IMG/VR virus record: IMGVR_UViG_3300009158_000102
Coordinates: 1 to 37,993 of that record
Length of the DNA: 37,993 nt
Direction: 5' to 3' (one strand)
From: a virus
The translations under genes and the position numbers were made by a program. Each line of letters begins with the position of its first letter. The stretch's first letter is position 1. Below the pieces are notes generated by a model. It worked only from the letters and a program-made list of their open reading frames with translations. It did no database searches and had not been told where the DNA came from. Below are positions 1-37,993 of this stretch, one piece after another.

Positions 1-123
1 ACCGCAGGACTCGGCAGCGATGCCTCCTGCATCCGCTGGTTCTCACGTTGAACTGCACCGCGCCGTCCGCGCGTTGCTGGACGGCGTGAACGCCCGCTAC
101 GCCAAGAACCCGCGAGAGTGGAC
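1..123. repeat. Direct terminal repeat, left copy (circularisation overlap)
   Basis: These 123 bases are identical to 37871-37993. The simplest reading is that a circular or circularly permuted phage genome was cut open at an arbitrary point inside a gene. The gene interrupted here reads cleanly across the junction from 37854. Confidence 0.95.
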
Positions 124-295
124 TTGCCCGCACATGCAGGCGCTGGACGACATGACACAATCGGAGCCGCAGCCCACGCTCACCGACGAGGAGCGGGAGG
201 CATTTAAGTTGGCCTCTGAATGGTGCCGTGCATACGGCGGTGCCGTGTACGACGCGGGCCATGCTATTGAGCGATTCTTGGAGCGGACGAAATGA
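1..295 (+). CDS. Small cassette protein with LT-EERE / LERTK C-terminal module (5' end lies at 37854)
   Basis: Function unknown. On the circle the reading frame starts at ATG 37854, preceded by an AGGAG ribosome site, and ends at TGA 293-295, giving about 103 residues; an internal ATG at 20 is a less likely start. The N-terminus is encoded by the loop and right arm of the attC-like site at 37826-37915, so it is translated partly from recombination-site DNA. The C-terminal third (LTDEEREAF ... FLERTK) resembles the C-terminus of the protein at 37147-37428, in DNA as well as protein, which points to duplication or exchange between cassettes. The stop codon lies in a TGAGAC remnant of an R box. 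Charged and soluble, with no membrane segment. Confidence 0.75.
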   Translation, partial: PQDSAAMPPASAGSHVELHRAVRALLDGVNARYAKNPREWTCPHMQALDDMTQSEPQPTLTDEEREAFKLASEWCRAYGGAVYDAGHAIERFLERTK

Positions 296-311
296 GACGC
301 TGAAGTTCTGT
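293..311 (+). repeat. Hairpin-less attC remnant (R'' - spacer - R')
   Basis: This 19-base junction has a TGAGAC box (R''-like, one A short of the TGAGAAC expected for this cassette) overlapping the preceding stop codon, a short spacer, and GTTCTGT at 305-311 as the R' box of the next cassette. GTTCTGT is complementary to ACAGAAC at 449-455, the other end of that cassette. The L arms and loop seen in the intact sites are absent. Confidence 0.5.
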
Positions 312-335: not shown

Positions 336-438
336 GGGGATGTAGTTCAGTGGTAGAACGCGAAATTAAGCCCCGCGACAGCGCTGGGTGTACTTCCCTT
401 TTCAGGCGTGAACCCCGGTTCGACTCCGGGCATCCCCA
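336..438 (+). tRNA. tRNA-like element with disrupted or enlarged anticodon domain
   Basis: The acceptor stem is GGGGATG (336-342) with CATCCCC (431-437). The D stem is GTTC (345-348) with GAAC (356-359) around a 7-base AGTGGTA loop. The T stem is CCCGG (414-418) with CCGGG (426-430) around the canonical loop TTCGACT. All three arms pair perfectly. Between the D and T arms lie 53-54 bases, where a class I tRNA has about 22 and a class II tRNA somewhat more. I find no clean 5-bp anticodon stem with a 7-base loop. GGG...CCC (386-388 with 396-398) and CTG...CAG pairings could form an extra hairpin. It may be a tRNA-derived RNA, a tRNA with an insertion, or a class II-like tRNA with an extreme variable arm. 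CCA is not encoded. It lies between GTTCTGT and ACAGAAC, which are complementary cassette ends, so it appears to be the cargo of its own cassette. Confidence 0.5.
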
Positions 439-448
439 TTTTTCATCC

Positions 449-497
449 ACAGAACGATGCGATCTGCGGCGCAGTCCGCAGCATCGCGTGGTTATGC
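449..497 (+). repeat. attC-like site 4 (short form)
   Basis: R'' is ACAGAAC (449-455) and R' is GTTATGC (491-497). Between them GAT-CTGCGG (461-469) pairs with CCGCAGCATC (476-485) around the 6-base loop CGCAGT, leaving one unpaired extra G opposite the gap. The regions next to the R boxes (GATGC and CACGC in the folded view) are unpaired spacers. This matches integron attC architecture. At 49 bases it is short for the class. Confidence 0.8.
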
Positions 498-517: not shown

Positions 518-730
518 ATGTTGAGGGGCACATACAAGGCGAATAAGTTCGTTGGAGAAACCGAAAGTCAAGCCGTCGATGTTTTTTTGGCTGAGATCAT
601 TGAAGTCTGCCGCAAGCATGGGATGTCGATCTCTCACGAGGACGGGCAAGGCGCTTTTCAAGTCGTGCGGTTCAACGATTCGGATTCCGATTGGCTGATG
701 TTTGCCGCGAACAAGACAGAGACGGCATAA
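518..730 (+). CDS. Cassette-encoded hypothetical protein (70 aa)
   Basis: Function unknown. Start ATG 518 was chosen because a GGAGGG ribosome site lies just upstream and because everything before 497 belongs to the attC-like site and tRNA-like cassette. The protein (MLRGTYKANKF ... AANKTETA) is a compact, acidic, soluble alpha/beta-looking sequence without cysteines of note or membrane segments. The stop TAA (728-730) is embedded in the R'' box GCATAAC, the usual arrangement in integron cassettes where ORFs nearly fill the cassette. The cassette runs from about 492 to 731 and its two ends, GTTATGC and GCATAAC, are complementary. Confidence 0.7.
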   Translation: MLRGTYKANKFVGETESQAVDVFLAEIIEVCRKHGMSISHEDGQGAFQVVRFNDSDSDWLMFAANKTETA

Positions 731-813
731 CACGCAGGATCAATGGCCGCGACGAAAGGATTCACTATGCCAAGACGGGTAAAGGAGCGGTCCATTGCAT
801 CCGCTGGTTATGG
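725..813 (+). repeat. attC-like site 5
   Basis: R'' is GCATAAC (725-731) and R' is GTTATGG (807-813). The left arm GGAT-CAATGG (737-746) folds on the right arm CCATTGCATCC (792-802), leaving one extrahelical G, flanked by unpaired spacers ACGCA and CAGC. The loop (747-791) contains an AAAGGA ribosome site and the ATG at 770 that starts the next ORF. Confidence 0.85.
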
Positions 814-1297
814 GCGTCCGCACTTCATTCGACGCCAGAAGCTTTGCGAGCTGTCGTCTGGAATGCGTGAACGTGCTGAGTGGGCCAGGGCGACCGCGGT
901 AGAGAATCCGGCGTCGGTTGACGTTGACGACGAAATGCTTCCGTGGGTCTACAACGAAGCCGAAGGGATGTGGTTTAGTTTCGACGGCAACTATTCGGCG
1001 TTGAGCCCAGCTGAGAAGTGGGAACGGAAGGTGGAGCGCGATGCAAAGCTGGCCGACGAGGAAGCCGCCTACCAACGCTGGAGCGCCATTCGGCAGCAAG
1101 TGCTTGAACGCGATGGGCACACCTGTCAGCTTTGCGGGTTTGTGGCGACATCGAACCTGCACATTCACCACATCCTAAAGCGGACAGATGGCGGAACGGA
1201 TCACCTCGACAACTTGCTCACGCTTTGTCCGTCTTGCCACAGCAAGGCGGATCGGAAGTTCTACAACCCCGACTGGACTCAGCCCCCGGTCGAATAA
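770..1297 (+). CDS. HNH endonuclease, cassette-encoded
   Basis: The C-terminal half is a classic HNH nuclease: after 'VLERDGHTCQLCG' come the paired cysteines, the IHHI histidine motif, 'HLDNLLTLCPSCH' with its asparagine and second cysteine pair, and a short tail. Such proteins cut DNA using one divalent metal, with structural zinc held by the two CxxC pairs. The N-terminal about 90 residues are unassigned, with a WV.NEAEGMWFSFDG stretch. ATG 770 has the best ribosome site (AAAGGA, 8 bases upstream); ATG 743 and ATG 863 are alternatives. The first 15 or so residues are encoded by the attC-like site at 725-813. The cassette ends in CCATAAC (1300-1306), complementary to its GTTATGG start. It could be a homing-type or anti-competitor nuclease; it lies far from the terminase genes, so a packaging role is less likely. 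Confidence 0.85.
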   Translation, partial: PRRVKERSIASAGYGRPHFIRRQKLCELSSGMRERAEWARATAVENPASVDVDDEMLPWVYNEAEGMWFSFDGNYSALSPAEKWERKVERDAKLADEEAAYQRWSAIRQQVLERDGHTCQLCGFVATSNLHIHHILKRTDGGTDHLDNLLTLCPSCHSKADRKFYNPDWTQPPVE

Positions 1298-1299
1298 AC

Positions 1300-1318
1300 C
1301 CATAACCAGTGTTTATGC
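1300..1318 (+). repeat. Second hairpin-less attC remnant
   Basis: CCATAAC (1300-1306), five bases, then TTTATGC (1312-1318, GTTATGC with one change). The 19-base layout matches 293-311. CCATAAC pairs with the GTTATGG that opens the HNH cassette. A further GCATAAC at 1345-1351, complementary to GTTATGC, and a degenerate GTG-ATTATCG at 1396-1405 may be a last decayed site with no gene. Confidence 0.45.
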
Positions 1319-1416
1319 TGACCCGCATAATCGCGGCCCCTGCTGCATAACACCCCGCCGAATCGGCGCCGCACGGCCGCGAGGCGCGAAACCGGGTGAT
1401 TATCGTGACCCGCATA

Positions 1417-1904: not shown

Positions 1905-2819
1905 ATGAGACTCGACGACTTTCTGAACCAGATTTACGTTCCGCTGAAACTTCGCGGCCGCAGCCAGGAATCGATCCGGCTTCTTCGGCATGCGATCACC
2001 CAGTTCTCGCGGTGGCTCGGTCGCCCGGCGGTGCTCGAGGATTGCGACGACCTGGTGGTGAGCCAGTTTCTTGCGAAGCGCGGCGAGAAGCTCGCCCCGG
2101 AGTCGGTAGCCCGCGAGCGGTCGGGGCTTCTGGCGATCTGGAATCTGGCCCAGGCTCGCGGCATGGTGCGGCTCCGGCCTTGCGTCTCGACCGAGCTCGT
2201 GCCCGAGCGGACGCCGCGGGCACTGACCGAGGAGGAGCTCGCGCGGCTCTTCGCCGTGGCGGAACGGAGCACTGGCTGGGTCGGGCCGGTTCCGGCGAAG
2301 GTGTTTTTCCCGACGCTTATAGCGGTGCTCTTCTACTCCGGCGAGCGCATCACGGCGACGCTGTCGATCGCCCGAGACAGGTATCGGCGGCCGTGGCTGA
2401 TCGTGCCGCCGCACACCCGGAAGGGGAAGAAACGCGAGCGAATCTATGAGCTCCCGCCGTGGGTGTGCGACATGCTCGACGAGATGCTGAGTTATCACCG
2501 GGCCGAGCGGGTGTTTTTCTGGGGCGCGACGATGACCGCGCTCCGGAAACGCTGGAAGACGCTCACGCGGCGGGCCGGGCTCGGCGACGGGCGGGATGTT
2601 CAGTTTCACGTTCTCAGGCGTAGCACCGCCTCACATCTGGACGCTGCCGGCGGGGATGCCACGGCATACATGGGACACAGCAGCGACACCGTGACCAGGC
2701 GGAGCTATTTGGACGTTCGGATCACGGGAGCCAAGAAGCCGAAGGCTTGGGAGTTGCTCCCGACGATCAGGCCCGGCGACAATCCGGGGCCGGTCGCAAA
2801 ATCGCCCGTGGCGCGGTAG
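1905..2819 (+). CDS. Tyrosine recombinase / phage integrase
   Basis: 304 residues. An N-terminal core-binding SAM-like domain (about 1-95) is followed by a catalytic domain with the expected residues: Arg148 in 'FYSGERIT', a lysine in the 'HTRKGKK' beta turn (about 173-176), His235 and Arg238 in 'HVLRRS', His258 in 'YMGHSS' and nucleophile Tyr268 in 'RRSYLD'. The start ATG follows GGGAGG closely. It would integrate and excise the phage. It is not an integron integrase: the stretch between the 'YELPP' motif and HxxR is about 50 residues and lacks the long insertion typical of IntI. It sits next to the attC-like array but nothing shows it acts on it. The attP site was not identified. Confidence 0.9.
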   Translation: MRLDDFLNQIYVPLKLRGRSQESIRLLRHAITQFSRWLGRPAVLEDCDDLVVSQFLAKRGEKLAPESVARERSGLLAIWNLAQARGMVRLRPCVSTELVPERTPRALTEEELARLFAVAERSTGWVGPVPAKVFFPTLIAVLFYSGERITATLSIARDRYRRPWLIVPPHTRKGKKRERIYELPPWVCDMLDEMLSYHRAERVFFWGATMTALRKRWKTLTRRAGLGDGRDVQFHVLRRSTASHLDAAGGDATAYMGHSSDTVTRRSYLDVRITGAKKPKAWELLPTIRPGDNPGPVAKSPVAR

Positions 2820-4275: not shown

Positions 4276-4551
4276 TCACCTCCGGGGGAGTTTGAAAAAC
4301 GCGATCACCGCCACGAAGACGATGTTGGCCGAGTAGTTGACGATCAACGGCCATTCGCTCATCGGGGCCACGTAGGCCAGCGTGAGGATCTCGCCGATCC
4401 CCCACATGCCCAGGAAGCCCCACGAGATTCCGGCCGACGACCGGGTGCGCCACGACTGCACGGCCTGCGGCAGACCGCAGAACGCGAGGAGCGCGGCCCC
4501 GGCCCAGCCGATCGACTCCTGGACGGTGGCGGTGGTGAGCGGCTCGATCAT
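4276..4551 (-). CDS. PQ-loop repeat membrane protein (SemiSWEET-like)
   Basis: 91 residues, start ATG 4551 overlapping the desaturase stop by ATGA. Three transmembrane helices are evident: about 13-30 ('IGWAGAALLAFCGLPQAVQS'), 42-62 ('SWGFLGMWGIGEILTLAYV') and 66-87. 'GLPQAVQSWRTRSSAGISW' is a PQ-loop motif: proline-glutamine at the end of helix 1, then the basic loop and a conserved 'S-GIS--F'. This is the architecture of the single-bundle SemiSWEET/PQ-loop family, which form dimers and include sugar transporters and other small-solute carriers. The substrate cannot be told. Translational coupling to the lipid desaturase suggests co-expression in the host membrane. Confidence 0.75.
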   Translation of the reverse strand: MIEPLTTATVQESIGWAGAALLAFCGLPQAVQSWRTRSSAGISWGFLGMWGIGEILTLAYVAPMSEWPLIVNYSANIVFVAVIAFFKLPRR

Positions 4552-5072
4552 GCCGTTTGCCTCTCCGGGCGCGGGTGGATGCCGGCCAGACCGACCACGG
4601 CTTCGAGCCCCCGCCAGAACCCGAGCATGGAGAGCGTGGGATTCAGCCAATCGGACATCACGCAGAAATCGGTGGCGAAGGGGCTGGAGTGGTGCGCGGC
4701 GTGCCCGTCGGGCGACGACAGCACCCCGAGGAGCTGGAGCCCGCGGATCGGTCGGGAGCACCGCTGGTGGGCCCACCCGTGGATTTCGTTGGCCTGGGTG
4801 GCGAACGCCGCGACCAGGGCTAGCCAGTGCTGCCCGAGGGCCAGGGCCGCGCCGGCGATGGCGGCCGTCGGCAGGACGGTCGTCCAGTTGCGGGTCCAGT
4901 AGCCGCCCTGGAGGAACGCCCGGGGCTCCGAATGGTGGCGGATGTTGGGCGCGACGACATGCGGGCCCAGGATCGGCCAGGCGGGGTTCCCGTAGCGGTC
5001 TTCCCACCAGTGCACGATCCCGGTGGCCAGGTCGGCTGCCAGCCATGCGGACAGGATGTAGGCGGCGATCAT
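4548..5072 (-). CDS. CarF/PEDS1 (Kua/TMEM189)-family lipid desaturase
   Basis: 174 residues, start ATG 5072 overlapping the upstream kinase stop (ATGA). Family features are unmistakable: 'GIVHWWEDRYG' (His21), 'APNIRHHSEP' (His46, His47), 'NEIHGWAHQ' (His98, His102) and 'DGHAAHHSSP' (His124, His127, His128), followed by 'MSDWLNPTLSMLGFWRGLE'. These eight histidines are the di-iron ligands expected for the family. Hydrophobic segments at about 1-20, 64-93 and 108-120 make it an integral membrane protein. Characterised relatives (bacterial CarF, animal PEDS1) form the vinyl-ether double bond of plasmalogens; plant FAD4 desaturates a plastid phosphatidylglycerol acyl chain. Which lipid is the substrate here is unknown. 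The length suits a minimal domain. It is intact, in a phage auxiliary operon, which suggests remodelling of host membrane lipid. Confidence 0.88.
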   Translation of the reverse strand: MIAAYILSAWLAADLATGIVHWWEDRYGNPAWPILGPHVVAPNIRHHSEPRAFLQGGYWTRNWTTVLPTAAIAGAALALGQHWLALVAAFATQANEIHGWAHQRCSRPIRGLQLLGVLSSPDGHAAHHSSPFATDFCVMSDWLNPTLSMLGFWRGLEAVVGLAGIHPRPERQTA

Positions 5073-5617
5073 GCGGCTCTCCCCGTGTAGGCCGTCCAGG
5101 CGCTGAGCACGCGGCGGCGGAGCTCCTCGACCGTGCCGTCGTTCGTGATGACGGCGTCGCAATCCTCCGGGCCGATCTGGTGGTCGCTCTTGTGCGAGCC
5201 GCGCCCGAGCCCCGGCCGGTCGATCCACCACACCTCCCCGCCGCGGTCCCGGACGGCCGCGACCTCGTTGGGGAATCGGGTGCCGCAGATCGCGAACACG
5301 TCGGCCCAGCGCGACGCCTGGAGCCGGTCGATGCGGAGCATCGTCAGCCGCACCCACAGGTCGGGATGCACGAGCTCGCGGCCCCATTCCGTGCCCAGCG
5401 TGCGGAGCAGCTGTCGCGGCACGAGCTCGAGGCCCCCGGCCGGGATGCCGGTCTCTTTCTGGGTCCGGTCGCGGAGCAGATCTTCGTCGATGTCGAACAT
5501 CGCCGCGATCCCGCGATAGATGGGATCGGCCCATTGGATGTGCCGCGCCCCCGGCACGAGCGATGCCGCGAGCGTCTTTCCGGAGCCGATCGAGCCGGCG
5601 AGTCCTACGATCCGCAT
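5069..5617 (-). CDS. Deoxynucleoside monophosphate kinase-like protein
   Basis: 182 residues from ATG 5617. The N-terminus 'IVGLAGSIGSGKT' (P-loop, about residues 5-15) is followed by 'ARHIQWADPIYRGIAAMF', a substrate region like that of phage dNMP kinases and dephospho-CoA kinases, then 'ICGTRFPNEVAAVRDRGGEVWWIDRPG', the 'R-PNE' signature seen in phage dNMP kinases. C-terminal 'DAVITNDGTVEELRRRV' is the usual last strand and helix. The likely role is phosphorylation of dNMPs to dNDPs for phage DNA synthesis. It overlaps its upstream neighbour by 13 bases and its downstream neighbour by 4. Confidence 0.85.
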   Translation of the reverse strand: MRIVGLAGSIGSGKTLAASLVPGARHIQWADPIYRGIAAMFDIDEDLLRDRTQKETGIPAGGLELVPRQLLRTLGTEWGRELVHPDLWVRLTMLRIDRLQASRWADVFAICGTRFPNEVAAVRDRGGEVWWIDRPGLGRGSHKSDHQIGPEDCDAVITNDGTVEELRRRVLSAWTAYTGRAA

Positions 5618-5991
5618 GCCGCGGTCTCCTTCATCGTGTCGAGCCATCGCTTCAAGTCCCAGAACTCGTAGAACACGGGCCGCCCGAGCGACAGGAACAG
5701 CCGCACCTCCGCATCGGCCCCGCTGGATTCGTGCTGGCGGTAGTCGATCACGGCGTCGGTGGCCGTCAGCCGCAGACAGGCATCGCAGCGGAGGATGATC
5801 TCGTTGTCGTAGTCGACCCAATCGCGGTAGGGCCGCGGGTTGTGCAGGTGCTGGAAGTGGCTCCAGAGCGGCGCGATAGGGATCACGCCCAGGTCATAGA
5901 GGCAGTCCCACATCCGCATCTGGAACCGCGTGTTGATCGCGGCGTCGCCCTTGGTGTAGGGGCTCGCGATGTAGACCCATGGGCGGCTCAT
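5605..5991 (-). CDS. DUF4406 / nucleoside 2-deoxyribosyltransferase-like protein
   Basis: 128 residues from ATG 5991, coupled to the metallophosphoesterase above it by an ATGA overlap. 'WVYIASPYTKGD' at the N-terminus, 'MWDCLYDLGVIPIAPLWSHF', 'DYDNEIILRCDACLRL' and the closing 'GADAEVRLFLSLGRPVFY' follow the Rossmann-like pattern of DUF4406 and nucleoside 2-deoxyribosyltransferase relatives, common in phages. The family can cleave or exchange nucleoside bases; the reaction here is unknown. Placement beside a dNMP kinase supports a nucleotide-metabolism role. The in-frame extension to 6159 lies inside the neighbouring gene and is not used. Confidence 0.75.
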   Translation of the reverse strand: MSRPWVYIASPYTKGDAAINTRFQMRMWDCLYDLGVIPIAPLWSHFQHLHNPRPYRDWVDYDNEIILRCDACLRLTATDAVIDYRQHESSGADAEVRLFLSLGRPVFYEFWDLKRWLDTMKETAACGS

Positions 5992-7010
5992 GACTGCCTC
6001 ACCTTCCCGCCGGCGATGCGGAAGTTCTCCACGTCGAACTGGCCGTCGGAATCGGTTCTGACGATCGCGGCGCCGTGGTTCCACTTGTTCAGCCTCGCGT
6101 AGTCCGGATGCAGATCGCAGAGGCACCCGGTGCTCCAGCAAAACACCTCCCGGCCCCACATGTCGGGTTCGCAGTGGCCGCTGGTGCGGTGGCCGTGGCC
6201 TTCGAGCACGGTATGGTGGAGCCGCAGGAATGCCCCCCGGGCCTGGTTGACCGGCGCGGAGATTCCGCTGCCCTTTTCATGGCCATGCAAGAGCGGGAGT
6301 TTGCCGGCAAGGATCGGCCGCTTGTCGCCGACCAGGGCGATGCCGTGGCGGTCGAGCTGGAGCCAGTTGTCGAGGCCCATGATGGGGTCGTCGGAAATCT
6401 CCGGGGCGTGCTGGTGGAGCCACAAGTCCCACCTCTCTTCATGGTTGCCCTTTTTCAGCACGATCGGGATATCGGGAAACTCCTGCCGCAGCCACGCGAG
6501 CATCTGCCGCTGGGCCTCAACCTCCGCCTTGAAGTTCCGCTTTGCCGGGTTCTTGTCCCACCGCGAGATCGAATAGAAATCGCCGATGTCGCCGTTGAGC
6601 ACCAGGGCGTCGATCCGCGACTCCTTGCAGTGCTCGACCGCCAGCCGTAGGGCGGCCTCGTCGTGGTAGGGCACATGGATGTCGGATAGCACGCCGATCG
6701 CTCCCGTCACTTCGAGCACGTAGGGCTCCCACGGCTCGGCGCGGCTCGCGGGCATCGCCTCGACGGGGGCGTTGCGTTGCGGTCGCATCGTGCCGCTGCC
6801 AGACGACATGATCGCTTTGCGGTTCTTCTTGCCCTGGAGGCCCAGGTGATAGCGAATCCGCATGTAGGCTTGCTCCAGCGTGATTGCGCCGTTGGCCTCC
6901 GCCTGCAATCGCCGGCCGAGCGTCCGCGCCGGGGCGTCGGGGTGGAGCTCGACCAGCCGGCGGGCGATCTTCGTGATCTCGTCGCCGGCTGTTTTTCCTT
7001 TGACTGACAT
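5988..7010 (-). CDS. Calcineurin-like metallophosphoesterase with N-terminal HTH-like region
   Basis: 340 residues. Residues 1-60 are a basic helical region resembling a helix-turn-helix ('TLGRRLQAEANGAITLEQAY'). The catalytic domain carries all metallophosphoesterase blocks: 'LSDIHVPYHD' (Asp110, His112), 'LNGDIGDFY' (Asp141), 'KKGNHEERW' (Asn189, His190), 'LLHGHEKG' (His242, His244) and 'LEGHGHRTSG' (His272, His274). It should bind two metals and hydrolyse phosphomonoesters or diesters. Phage enzymes of this type act on nucleic acids or nucleotides; the substrate is not predictable. The ATG is preceded by GGGAGG, and an 88-base gap separates it from the gene upstream, so it may have its own promoter. 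Confidence 0.85.
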   Translation of the reverse strand: MSVKGKTAGDEITKIARRLVELHPDAPARTLGRRLQAEANGAITLEQAYMRIRYHLGLQGKKNRKAIMSSGSGTMRPQRNAPVEAMPASRAEPWEPYVLEVTGAIGVLSDIHVPYHDEAALRLAVEHCKESRIDALVLNGDIGDFYSISRWDKNPAKRNFKAEVEAQRQMLAWLRQEFPDIPIVLKKGNHEERWDLWLHQHAPEISDDPIMGLDNWLQLDRHGIALVGDKRPILAGKLPLLHGHEKGSGISAPVNQARGAFLRLHHTVLEGHGHRTSGHCEPDMWGREVFCWSTGCLCDLHPDYARLNKWNHGAAIVRTDSDGQFDVENFRIAGGKVRQS

Positions 7011-7098
7011 GCTGCCTCCCTGCGTCAGTTTGGGCCCTACGGTTTCACGATATTCGCGGTGAGCAACTTCGAAAACGGGAGAATCGCGTGGCGTGCCT

Positions 7099-7416
7099 TC
7101 ATTGGTTTTGTGTGGTTTCTGTGGGCTCGGATGCCGTGGATCCAGGGGGCATTCCGAGCCACTTCTCCCCGACTTTGTTCAGCAGGGCCTGCCGCTTGTC
7201 GCACCCGCAGGGGCCGCCCACGATTGCCTCGACGCGGTCCTTCGTGATTCCGACCGCGGCGAGGCCGGCGGCAGCCAGGTCGCCGAGGCCGGGGCCTGGC
7301 TGCACGCTGCACAGGCGGCGAATCGGCGGCTTTGCGCCGCACAGACGAAACCCGCACCGCCGGCACGTCCCGCATTCCGCGTCGTAGGCGAAGTCGCAGT
7401 CCGTCACCATTGCCAA
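7099..7416 (-). CDS. Cysteine-rich hypothetical protein
   Basis: 105 residues, function unknown. The N-terminal half holds 'ECGTCRRCGFRLCG', and a later 'PCGCDKR' adds two more cysteines, so a metal (zinc) site is likely. The middle 'PGPGLGDLAAAGLAAVGITKDRVEAIVGG' looks like a short helical segment that could be membrane associated or a small helix-hairpin. The start overlaps the upstream gene by 13 bases. It is the last gene of the virion block, so it may be a minor virion or tail-tip protein. Confidence 0.6.
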   Translation of the reverse strand: MAMVTDCDFAYDAECGTCRRCGFRLCGAKPPIRRLCSVQPGPGLGDLAAAGLAAVGITKDRVEAIVGGPCGCDKRQALLNKVGEKWLGMPPGSTASEPTETTQNQ

Positions 7417-7994
7417 GTTATGCCTACGGTGACGTTGAAAAAGGCTTTGTAGGTGGGCAGGGACCCGCAGTTGACTGGCCCGCCAAATGGATTGTAGAGG
7501 TCACTATCAAAGCCGTTTCCGGTATGCGCTGCCGTGAGTGTTTCCGAGGCCGTTGACCCATACTCCAATGCGCAAAGCGTTGATGTTAGCGATACCTCCA
7601 TGTCGTATCGCTGGAAGCAAGGAAATCCAACGTCGCAAAACTTCATATACAATCGCGAGTTATAGAGCCCGCCTTCCGTCGCGCACCTGATTTCATAGAC
7701 AACTTTCGTGCCGTCTGCCAGCGTCGTGCTATACATGAAATAGTCAGCAAGGTTCTTGCCGGCGTATGACAAGACATACGTTCCGCCCACTTGCGCAGCC
7801 GCACCTGCCGCCGTGCAGCTACCAACGCTACCGCTTGCAAGGCTTCCAAGCGTCACCGCTGCTGTCACGGTCAGCGGGGCATAGCCGTATGGGTCAGCGC
7901 ATGTGCAGGCCTTTGGCGGGCAGCAGCAGTCCGTGTGGGTCGCCAGGGACGAGCCAACCTTGAGCAGCGACGACCCTTGCTTGATCAGCGGCAC
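7404..7994 (-). CDS. Hypothetical cysteine-rich, beta-rich protein
   Basis: 196 residues, not recognised. The N-terminus 'MPLIKQGSSLLKVGSSLATH' is followed by a cysteine cluster (CCCPPKACTC), then a threonine/serine/glycine-rich beta region with scattered cysteines (for example 'CATEG', 'FCDVGFPC') and a C-terminal 'KAFFNVTVGITWQW'. No signal peptide. Codon use here is less GC-biased than in neighbouring genes (for example 7540-7760), which may mean recent acquisition. It lies directly downstream of the tail-tip genes, consistent with a receptor-binding or tip protein. Confidence 0.6.
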   Translation of the reverse strand: MPLIKQGSSLLKVGSSLATHTDCCCPPKACTCADPYGYAPLTVTAAVTLGSLASGSVGSCTAAGAAAQVGGTYVLSYAGKNLADYFMYSTTLADGTKVVYEIRCATEGGLYNSRLYMKFCDVGFPCFQRYDMEVSLTSTLCALEYGSTASETLTAAHTGNGFDSDLYNPFGGPVNCGSLPTYKAFFNVTVGITWQW

Positions 7995-8002
7995 AGTGAC
8001 AC

Positions 8003-8887
8003 CTACGGGCAGGAGGTTGTCGTGATCGTCACGTCAGTTGGGTCTGGCGAATCAATGAACGTGCTAATCTTCTTTCGCGTGAACACGAGGCCCGAGCCCA
8101 TAAGAGACACGCCAGTAATCACGTCGAGCTGCGTCGGCTCGGCCCAGACGAGATACCAGTACCCATTCGCCCCGCGGGCGACCTCGACCCACCGGCCGGA
8201 CGGAACGGTAACCATCTTGTTTACGCAGTTGTCTAGCGTGGCCGACGATGTCGTCTCGCTGGGCGGCGTTCCGGCTTCCCAAAGGGCAATCGTCGCCGTC
8301 GTGTCCTTCGTCCAGGTCGTCGTCGTCTTCCCGAGACGCAACGAATCACCGCCTTCGCCCATGCGCACGGCACACCACTTCGTCCCCGTGCCGCTCGGCT
8401 TGTAGAGAATCCTCGCGGAGCCGCTGCCACCCGACGTTAGCTGCGTCCGGTCCGAGTTCTTCACGTCGCAAAAACCGTGCGCCGCATCGACGACATCAAT
8501 CTGCACCTGGCACACGCCCGAGATCCACGCCCGGCCGACCTTCCCGTTGGCGATCGGCTCCAGGCAGATCAGGAACTTCCCTTTGTGGTCGGCGGTCGTT
8601 GGCGTTACCCCGGTGAACGCGACCTGATTCTGGAACGACGCGAGCGCGGCCGACGGCGTGAAAATCACCCCGCTGATCCCGAGCACGCCGAACCGCGAGA
8701 CGGTGGACCCGCTGGAGTTCTTGACGAGCACGATGTCGGCCTGGCGGAACTGCTGCGGGCCGTTTGCCGGCAGCGTCGCGCCACCCTGCCGGTGGGCCTC
8801 CGCGGCATCCAGGCACGCGTTCCAGGCCGCGGCCGGGATTTGCAGCTTGTCGCCGCTCGATGCGCGTTTGAATGGATCGCCGGCCAT
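8003..8887 (-). CDS. Hypothetical tail-region protein
   Basis: 294 residues, no recognised domain. The start 'MAGDPFKRASSGDKLQIPAAAWNACLDAAEAHR' is a helical opening often seen in phage structural accessory proteins. The rest is beta-rich with regular 'G..V...' strands and a C-terminal 'TDVTITTTSCP'. It sits two genes after the tape measure, where siphoviruses encode distal tail, hub or tip proteins, so a tail-tip role is inferred from order only. Confidence 0.6.
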   Translation of the reverse strand: MAGDPFKRASSGDKLQIPAAAWNACLDAAEAHRQGGATLPANGPQQFRQADIVLVKNSSGSTVSRFGVLGISGVIFTPSAALASFQNQVAFTGVTPTTADHKGKFLICLEPIANGKVGRAWISGVCQVQIDVVDAAHGFCDVKNSDRTQLTSGGSGSARILYKPSGTGTKWCAVRMGEGGDSLRLGKTTTTWTKDTTATIALWEAGTPPSETTSSATLDNCVNKMVTVPSGRWVEVARGANGYWYLVWAEPTQLDVITGVSLMGSGLVFTRKKISTFIDSPDPTDVTITTTSCP

Positions 8888-36642: not shown

Positions 36643-36702
36643 GCAGTTTTCGGAAAGTGCCAAAACCGCTAGAATCGTGCACGCTACGGCATGGAGGGAC
36701 CA

Positions 36703-37008
36703 ATGCTGGCAGGGCTGACAGCGACGGAAATCCGCGAGGCCGCGGAGGAGCTCTATTGCCCCGACGCGTTTCGTGACGCGCCGGGGCAGATCTTCCTCGA
36801 CCAGTTCGAGGCCGCGGATCCGCCGACGACGTTTCTCCGCGTCTCGTTTCGGCGGTTCACCGAGCGAGCCGCGCGGAAGCTCACCGAGCTCGGCGCCGTG
36901 CTCCAGGAGCGACACGGCGAGCAGTCGAATCTGGTTTTCTGCGTCTACCTCGGTACGATCGACCCGACGACGTTGGCGCGGCATTCGATACAGATGGCCG
37001 ATCGGTGA
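36703..37008 (+). CDS. Hypothetical protein divergent from the leftward operon
   Basis: 101 residues from ATG 36703, where GGAGGGAC lies just upstream (ATG 36691 is less likely). 'TATEIREAAEELYCPDAFRD', 'TTFLRVSFRRFTERAARKLT' and 'FCVYLGTIDPTTLARHSIQM' suggest an alpha/beta protein. A possible -10 TAGAAT is at 36670-36675. The stop TGA (37006-37008) begins a TGAAC, so it could be the first cassette of the array, but no clear 5' R' box precedes it. Confidence 0.55.
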   Translation: MLAGLTATEIREAAEELYCPDAFRDAPGQIFLDQFEAADPPTTFLRVSFRRFTERAARKLTELGAVLQERHGEQSNLVFCVYLGTIDPTTLARHSIQMADR

Positions 37009-37033
37009 ACGGCGTGAACAGAGCCGATGGCTG

Positions 37034-37095
37034 TCCCGGTCGGGAAAGAAGTGGCCAGGGTGGTGGCGAAGTGATCGGAAATGTCCCGTCCGGGA
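37034..37095. repeat. Two TCCCG-NN-CGGGA hairpins
   Basis: TCCCGGTCGGGA at 37034-37045 and TCCCGTCCGGGA at 37084-37095, each followed by AAAG, in the spacer between 36703-37008 and the first intact attC-like site. They could be remnants of duplicated site arms or transcription signals. Confidence 0.4.
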
Positions 37096-37101
37096 AAGAC
37101 G

Positions 37102-37190
37102 AGAGAACGCCAGAGATGAATGGCTGCGAACACAGGAGCATGAGACATGACAGACGAGAATGAGCAGTCCATTCCATCGCGTGGTTCTCA
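37102..37190 (+). repeat. attC-like site 1
   Basis: R'' is AGAGAAC (37102-37108), R' is GTTCTCA (37184-37190). GAT-GAATGG (37115-37123) pairs with CCATTCCATC on the right arm, one extrahelical G remaining, flanked by unpaired spacers. The loop carries AGGAG (37134-37138) and ATG 37147, the start of the next gene. Confidence 0.85.
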
Positions 37191-37428
37191 AGGGGAGCCA
37201 GTCGCGTGGGGTGTAGCCACCAGTGGCGGGTTTGTGGTCTATGCGATGCGAACCAGATCAGAGGTGGCTAGGTACGTTGCCGACGAAACTAACATTGTTC
37301 CGCTCTACCGCTCGCCCACGCTCACCGCCGAGGAGCGGGAGGCGATCAACTGGGTGCTCGGAGACGTGGCCGACATCACCGGGCCTGTGGAGGACACGTT
37401 GCGGGGGCTGCTTGAGCGAACGAAGTGA
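37147..37428 (+). CDS. Small cassette protein with LT-EERE / LERTK C-terminal module
   Basis: 93 residues. The ribosome site AGGAG and ATG lie in the loop of attC-like site 1, so the first about 15 residues are encoded by the site. The middle 'GFVVYAMRTRSEVARYVADE' is a compact alpha/beta stretch. The C-terminus 'PTLTAEEREAINWVLGDVAD' and 'LLERTK' is paralogous to the protein ending at 295. Its stop TGA is inside the R'' box TGAGAAC. Function unknown. Confidence 0.75.
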   Translation: MTDENEQSIPSRGSQGEPVAWGVATSGGFVVYAMRTRSEVARYVADETNIVPLYRSPTLTAEEREAINWVLGDVADITGPVEDTLRGLLERTK

Positions 37429-37513
37429 GAACGCCAGCGATCAGCGGCCCGCGACCGCTGACTTACTATTTCGGCAGACGGCATCGCGGGTCCGTTGCAT
37501 CGCGTGGTTATCC
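37426..37513 (+). repeat. attC-like site 2
   Basis: R'' is TGAGAAC (37426-37432), R' is GTTATCC (37507-37513). GAT-CAGCGG (37439-37447) pairs with CCGTTGCATC, with one mismatch and one extrahelical G, and a second stem CCCGCGA/TCGCGGG extends the fold. The R'' is complementary to GTTCTCA at 37184, the start of the preceding cassette. Confidence 0.85.
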
Positions 37514-37537
37514 CGATTGCACCTTTAGGAGAACGAC

Positions 37538-37786
37538 ATGACGAACGTCGAGAAGCATCTTGCAAGGCTTGGCTTGAAGGTCCGCGACCGCGTGACCGGC
37601 ATGGAAGGCGTGATCACCGGGGTGAACTTTGACCTCTACGGGTGCATCCAAGCCATCCTGCATCCGGGCATGGACAAGGACGGAAAGGTCCGCGACACGC
37701 TATGGTTCGACATTGCACGGCTCGAAACCATCGACGAGAAGCCGGTGATGAGTCGGCCAGACTTCGACGCCGGGCCGGTGGCATAG
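37538..37786 (+). CDS. Cassette-encoded KOW-like hypothetical protein
   Basis: 82 residues from ATG 37538 with AGGAG upstream. 'LGLKVRDRVTGMEGVITGVN', 'FDLYGCIQAILHPGMDKDGK' and 'RDTLWFDIARLETID' resemble a small beta-barrel seen in phage proteins of unknown function ('V-D-VTG-EGVIT' turn). Start and stop both lie inside its own cassette, unlike its neighbours. The cassette ends in GGATAAC, complementary to its GTTATCC start. Confidence 0.7.
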   Translation: MTNVEKHLARLGLKVRDRVTGMEGVITGVNFDLYGCIQAILHPGMDKDGKVRDTLWFDIARLETIDEKPVMSRPDFDAGPVA

Positions 37787-37825
37787 GGACTCAAGGGGCC
37801 GGGCGAAAAGCCTGCGTTCTTGAGG

Positions 37826-37915
37826 GGATAACACGCAGGATCAGGAGCATCGCATGAGTGATTCAACTACACCGCAGGACTCGGCAGCGATGCCTCCTGC
37901 ATCCGCTGGTTCTCA
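37826..37915 (+). repeat. attC-like site 3
   Basis: R'' is GGATAAC (37826-37832), R' is GTTCTCA (37909-37915). GGAT-CAGGAG pairs with CTCCTGCATCC, leaving one extrahelical G. The loop has GGAG and ATG 37854 of the next cassette gene. The right arm also appears at 24-45 because of the terminal repeat. Confidence 0.85.
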
Positions 37916-37993
37916 CGTTGAACTGCACCGCGCCGTCCGCGCGTTGCTGGACGGCGTGAACGCCCGCTACGCCAAGAACCCGCGAGAGTGGAC
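37854..37993 (+). CDS. 5' part of the cassette gene that continues at base 1
   Basis: The frame starts at ATG 37854 ('MSDSTTPQDSAAMPPASAG') and runs off the window end; bases 37871-37993 duplicate 1-123. It is the same gene as 1-295. The initiator and first about 19 residues are encoded inside attC-like site 3. Confidence 0.75.
   Translation, partial: MSDSTTPQDSAAMPPASAGSHVELHRAVRALLDGVNARYAKNPREW
37871..37993. repeat. Direct terminal repeat, right copy
   Basis: Identical to bases 1-123. See the left copy. It marks closure of the genome into a circle. Confidence 0.95.

Follow-up and report, generated by a model that had tools for sequence, protein, structure and literature searches.

What is an array of attC sites doing in a phage genome that encodes no integron integrase, and by what means would its gene cassettes move? 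The window analysed here, 37,993 nucleotides in length, is the IMG/VR virus record IMGVR_UViG_3300009158_000102. Its array runs from 37102 through the circle junction to 1352. We consider it quite probable that this region is an integron platform that has become adapted to phages and lacks an integrase of its own; its cassettes would be mobilised by IntI acting in trans.

The phage genome and its likely hosts

The two ends of the record carry an exact repeat of 123 bp (1-123 = 37871-37993), and it thus represents a circular phage genome of 37,870 bp. The junction of the circle falls within the attC array, as could happen in a chimeric assembly. However, a contig from another sample (L007) spans from RecE (32924) over the junction to 731, which bears out the complete circle claimed in the initial annotation. 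That the array results from chimeric assembly or from chance repeats is extremely improbable, the latter also in view of the covariance model E-values and the many related sites described below.

Phage genes of the window encode a terminase, a portal protein, a major head protein/protease, a tape measure protein and RecE. The terminase has nearly full-length relatives, with at most 56% identity, in sampled genomes of one planctomycete's class, and matches at E<=1e-20 occur in 78 of the 298 genomes of that sample. Against annotated phages the identity is about 25-27%, and the aligned part makes up between a half and two thirds of the protein. These relatives, together with the similarity of the attC and attI sites, point to Planctomycetota as the likely hosts.

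36691-37008, plus strand: phage gene directly before the array, kept in an array-less related phage (L084)

Two near-identical 18-nt repeats, TGTCCCGGTCGGGAAAGA, lie just ahead of the first attC site (37032-37049 and 37082-37099).

attC sites

Sites related to those of the window were gathered from viral contigs and, with a relaxed attC pattern, from bacterial genomes, where the matches were mostly to Planctomycetota. The relaxed pattern was used because the strict phage attC pattern, with 79 matches in viral contigs, had none in 84,980 GTDB genomes. Both the viral and the host sets were fetched with attC patterns and may be biased by them.

A covariance model (R1) was built from 59 bacterial attC sites, mostly from Planctomycetota chromosomes and none from the window. 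It recovers exactly five sites in the window, all on the plus strand, with E-values from 4.6e-22 to 4.4e-9. The next match has an E-value of about 0.5-0.6 (the repeat of site 3 excluded). The five sites coincide in position with those annotated initially:

37102-37190, plus strand: attC site 1, with hairpin fold, E=4.2e-15; the distal end of the array as seen from attI
37426-37513, plus strand: attC site 2, E=4.6e-22; its left box TGAGAAC complements the right box of site 1
37826-37915, plus strand: attC site 3, E=7.5e-13; its end recurs at 1-45 via the terminal repeat
449-497, plus strand: attC site 4, a short form of 49 nt without an internal start codon, E=4.4e-9
725-813, plus strand: attC site 5, E=2.8e-14

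The initial annotation had proposed a covariance search and folding of the sites. The former, with a model derived from bacterial sites, scores all five on the plus strand; on folding, the sites are imperfect palindromes whose R and L arms leave a base extrahelical. The extra G (GAT- versus GATG), said there to occur always in the same place, indeed lies on the same arm in all five. Among 239 detected sites, for which the viral loci were fetched by attC pattern, the extra base is G in 233. A motif detector finds the same five sites in the window and one false positive, shuffled sequence giving about 0.3 per window. The helix of bacterial attC sites covaries strongly; since the detector pre-selects the outer pairs, independent support comes from the inner pairs and from sites picked by motif alone.

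The R boxes of neighbouring sites are perfect complements: GTTCTCA/TGAGAAC (sites 1-2), GTTATCC/GGATAAC (sites 2-3) and GTTATGC/GCATAAC (sites 4-5); GTTATGG/CCATAAC pairs site 5 with a closing box at 1300. Three of the four links between neighbouring sites are thus intact, and a decayed site at 293-311 interrupts that from site 3 to site 4. The same matching is common in the collected arrays, where it is perfect for 203 of 256 viral neighbours (shuffled maximum 51) and for 130 of 165 host neighbours (shuffled maximum 18). The classical R' consensus GTTRRRY is not followed, the right boxes of viral sites being mostly GTTCTSN or GTTATSN; host attC sites of the same lineage likewise deviate from it.

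R1 has no match at E<0.01 in the Planctomycetota DNA (398 kb) that surrounds relatives of the window terminase. At ten genomic loci that encode a close relative of the terminase, the covariance model shows no array and the motif detector two isolated candidates. A search of the array against Rfam produced no attC match and no credible RNA family beyond the tRNA-like gene described below.

A candidate attI site

The array closes at 1300. The box there is the complement of the right box of site 5, and behind it comes sequence common to many viral arrays.

1300-1352, minus strand: attI-like site, with the closing R box CCATAAC (1300-1306), an L-like box and further inverted boxes

This site was found again in dozens of viral contigs. 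A pattern built without the attC part matched 38 viral stretches. An attC site was detected next to 27 of them; in every case it lay on the side expected and its box was a perfect complement. Most of the remaining 11 stretches end too near the attI-like site to be informative, and in three (L310, L311, L315) no attC was detected although kilobases of sequence are available. The array-less phage L084 also carries the attI-like site, with no array there.

The attI-like site resembles the attI found beside intI in Planctomycetota, as a comparison of TTATACGGACCGTATAAATACAA↓GTT (host L278) with TTATACGGGTCCGTAGAAACACTG↓GTT (phage L259) illustrates. At the stringency used, the phage attI pattern had no match in 392 Planctomycetota genomes, and its recognition by host IntI is therefore putative. 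Judged by sequence similarity and box matching, the array therefore has a candidate attI at one end. Because this site recurs and resembles the attI of Planctomycetota, the locus would be an attI-plus-array platform without integrase and not only a CALIN. The initial annotation, which had read the region as a CALIN, was right about an attC array without IntI and had not listed the attI-like end.

Genes and elements of the array

The sites separate the following genes and elements:

37147-37428, plus strand: cassette gene 1 (93 aa), starting within attC site 1; a recurrent family among phage cassettes
37538-37786, plus strand: cassette gene 2 (82 aa), starting downstream of site 2
37854-37993 and on across the circle junction, 1-295, plus strand: cassette gene 3, starting within site 3
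293-311, plus strand: candidate collapsed attC remnant, TGAGACGCTGAAGTTCTGT, read from the sequence by the R-box rule
336-438, plus strand: tRNA-like gene (Rfam RF00005, 50.1 bits), between boxes GTTCTGT (305) and ACAGAAC (449)
518-730, plus strand: cassette gene 4 (70 aa), starting after site 4
743-1297, plus strand: cassette gene 5, an HNH nuclease (Pfam HNH, 8.6e-11), starting within site 5

By its collapse, the site at 293-311 would have joined the tRNA-like gene to gene 3 in a single unit, in the manner of fused cassettes. The tRNA-like gene has 44 nt in place of the 17-nt anticodon arm, and ARAGORN calls it Gly(tcc) only if a 27-nt intron is allowed. The nuclease region of the HNH cassette scores 62 bits against the IscB family, under the cut-off of 175. 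The DNA of cassette gene 2 resembles a stretch of Pseudomonas phage F_TK1718sp/PAK. In all, the DNA of the window array has two short matches in annotated phages, covering part of the array, and the DNA of another array has none there.

A Pfam search with 150 viral cassette proteins identified DUF551 (14), DNA methyltransferases, HNH nucleases, HTH proteins and others; most match no family there. Beside the arrays, the viral contigs encode, among others, portals, replication proteins and terminases of several families, and the carriers are thus diverse phages.

Gene orientation and start codons

In known integrons, the choice of attC strand sets gene orientation for expression from the promoter Pc (PMC8946536). 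Orientation was scored here with the extra base as a compass, taking the clearly longest open reading frame between sites, with GC3 above GC2. Relative to the asymmetry of attC, genes run in opposite ways in the two sets, 145:12 in viral and 8:101 in host arrays (Fisher p=4e-49). The phage cassette genes point toward attI, and all four intervals of the window have genes in this phage direction, none in that of classical cassettes.

An ATG inside the long site, in a frame that stays open past the right arm, was found in 217 of 312 viral sites and in 15 of 287 host sites, and 194 of the 217 viral leader-bearing sites have a Shine-Dalgarno-like motif. The leaders end mostly in PASAG, VASAG, AASRG and similar motifs (e.g. 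...PASAGS, ...PSRGS). In the window, leaders are present in sites 1, 3 and 5 and absent from sites 2 and 4. Site 1 contains a Shine-Dalgarno box, an ATG (37147) and the leader MTDENEQSIPSRGS; site 3 has an ATG at 37854 and the leader MSDSTTPQDSAAMPPASAGS; site 5 has an internal ATG at 743 (or 767), in frame with ...SIASAGYG. We infer that the attC-encoded leaders are translated.

The source of the integrase

The window encodes one candidate recombinase near the array:

1905-2819, plus strand: XerD-like tyrosine recombinase, not IntI

As the initial annotation had maintained, no IntI is encoded here: this recombinase has no match to the integron-integrase model TIGR02249 and is probably the phage integrase. 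The window thus contains at least two attC sites with no IntI nearby, the arrangement of a CALIN, and lacks the intI gene of a complete integron.

One possibility is that this recombinase moves the cassettes, as the integrase of an integron-like system. Its gene is about 600 bp from the attI-like site, and twenty recombinases of array-bearing phages form one family. However, several kilobases separate the gene from the array in other array phages, and the attI-like site resembles the attI found beside host IntI. Moreover, of 31 records encoding relatives of this recombinase, four contain attC sites and 27 do not, although many of the records are fragments. We regard this explanation as unlikely and disfavour the phage's own enzyme as the cassette recombinase.

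IntI scored over the cut-off in 24 of the 35 planctomycete genomes carrying such sites, and in none of 50 viral records of a first set and one of 50 of a second, partly overlapping set. The one positive viral record, the related G508 (L348), encodes its IntI at 1920-2915 on the minus strand; the protein scores 290 bits, above the cut-off, and its neighbour is a phage-type array at 4440-8534. G508 also has genes for terminase, DnaB, major head protein, Erf and exonuclease, and is thus a phage. Since IntI is rare in viral records and the recombinase family is not tied to arrays, movement of the cassettes by IntI in trans is the most likely mode.

The platform would then consist of an attI-like site and cassettes in which an attC site is followed by a gene. 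If known integrons are a guide, a Planctomycetota-type IntI, supplied in trans by a chromosomal integron of the host or by an IntI-encoding phage, may act on the folded attC strand, with the crossover at the AA↓C box (minus strand: G↓TT), and cassettes would be inserted at attI. Most of the long sites contain, in the attC loop and right arm, a Shine-Dalgarno-like motif, a start codon and an N-terminal leader that is in frame. A cassette would thus extend a phage transcript by a gene at its 3' end, and Pc would not be needed.

Cassette pools and movement

The initial annotation had suggested that the virus could exchange cassettes with host integrons. The comparison does not support such trade, since the phage and host cassette pools look separate and phage genes are inverted relative to host cassettes. 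In the compared sets, phage and host cassette proteins barely overlap; a search for the same cassettes in host genomes matched two contigs only, L159 and L115, neither of them planctomycete. L159 is labelled Cyanobium and L115 Uhrbacteria; the matched ORFs are in phage orientation, and both may be phage contigs. Exchange among phages fits better. Cassettes recur in unrelated arrays.

These observations also bear on whether the array is an ordinary phage CALIN, that is, a fragment of a host integron that the phage acquired by accident. Such arrays are already known in phages (PMC9892861), and the model built from host attC sites finds the sites of the window. However, gene direction is the reverse of that in host arrays, starts are encoded in attC, the attI-like end occurs in many diverse phages, the cassette pools look separate, and the strict phage attC pattern is absent from GTDB genomes. 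Chance acquisition is therefore rather unlikely.

For shared genes, the informative pairs were few; conservation favoured the attC site on the 5' side by 6:1 in viral and by 7:1 in host pairs. Within shared cassettes, attC is conserved at 75-90% and the gene at 93-100%, a difference not accounted for by a clean crossover. Near-identical cassette genes were seen in L014, L022, L023, L051 and L072, although their attC sites diverge by 10-25%. Some of this divergence falls in unpaired spacers, and one change in the stem is compensatory.

That sites are more variable than the genes they accompany, and that the phage has RecE, would agree with arrays reshuffled by homologous recombination between similar sites, the hairpins now serving mainly as translation or RNA elements. 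Most long sites have a Shine-Dalgarno-like motif and an ATG in their loop, which would suit such a role. On the other hand, the matched variable R-box bases of neighbours and the attI-like end need cuts at the box, and we find this explanation very unlikely. Under recombination by IntI in trans, the preferred reading, cassettes would be inserted at attI. In one sample, contig L007 ends at one border of the last cassette of the window and contig L081 begins at the other, as expected if this cassette varies in the population. In a count of contig ends against boxes, which is weakly informative, six lie within 8 nt of a left box, none at a right box and 51 elsewhere.

Comparison with known integrons

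Arrays of attC sites in phage genomes, mostly without intI, were described by Qi et al. in 2023, and the attC sites of three virulent phages were functional with IntI1 in an assay (PMC9892861); that paper makes no mention of tRNA or Planctomycetes. Window-type arrays are similar in having attC sites in phages without intI. They differ in their inverted genes, in attC-encoded starts and leaders, in an attI-like site common to many phages, and in being carried by planctomycete-type phages.

The chromosomal integrons of Planctomycetota (Pirellulales and relatives) have the same attC design, as captured by R1, and the same attI design. However, they contain intI, their genes run away from attI, and few of their attC sites have an in-frame start codon. 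The Planctomycetota integrons L276-L299 show two layouts, with the array downstream or upstream of intI.

Treponema-type integrons likewise have an atypical relation between transcription and the integron, and their intI clusters with that of Blastopirellula marina (PMC3607928). There intI is turned into the cassette direction, whereas in the phage arrays it is the genes whose direction is reversed with respect to attC and attI. With ORF-11 in attI1 of class 1 integrons (cited in PMC4670013), a recombination site similarly gives cassettes translation signals. ORF-11 is a separate short ORF in attI that allows re-initiation, whereas many phage attC sites have a start codon and an in-frame leader. 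A search of the open-access literature found no inverted arrays, attC-encoded starts or Planctomycetota phage integrons. Phage CALINs are thus known, and the inverted, leader-encoding, attI-bearing form looks new.

More generally, it is reasonably probable that phages of Planctomycetota keep an integron branch of their own, with an attI platform, usually no integrase, inverted cassettes confined to phages, and attC sites acting as start and N-terminal-tag modules, circulated by host or phage IntI. The phages retain the sites and reverse the genes, the recombination site encodes the protein start, and a cassette would thereby be self-starting for translation. If confirmed, viruses would have a route of their own for exchanging genes as modules, and the arrays would be a natural case of a single DNA sequence that must serve both recombination folding and a reading frame.
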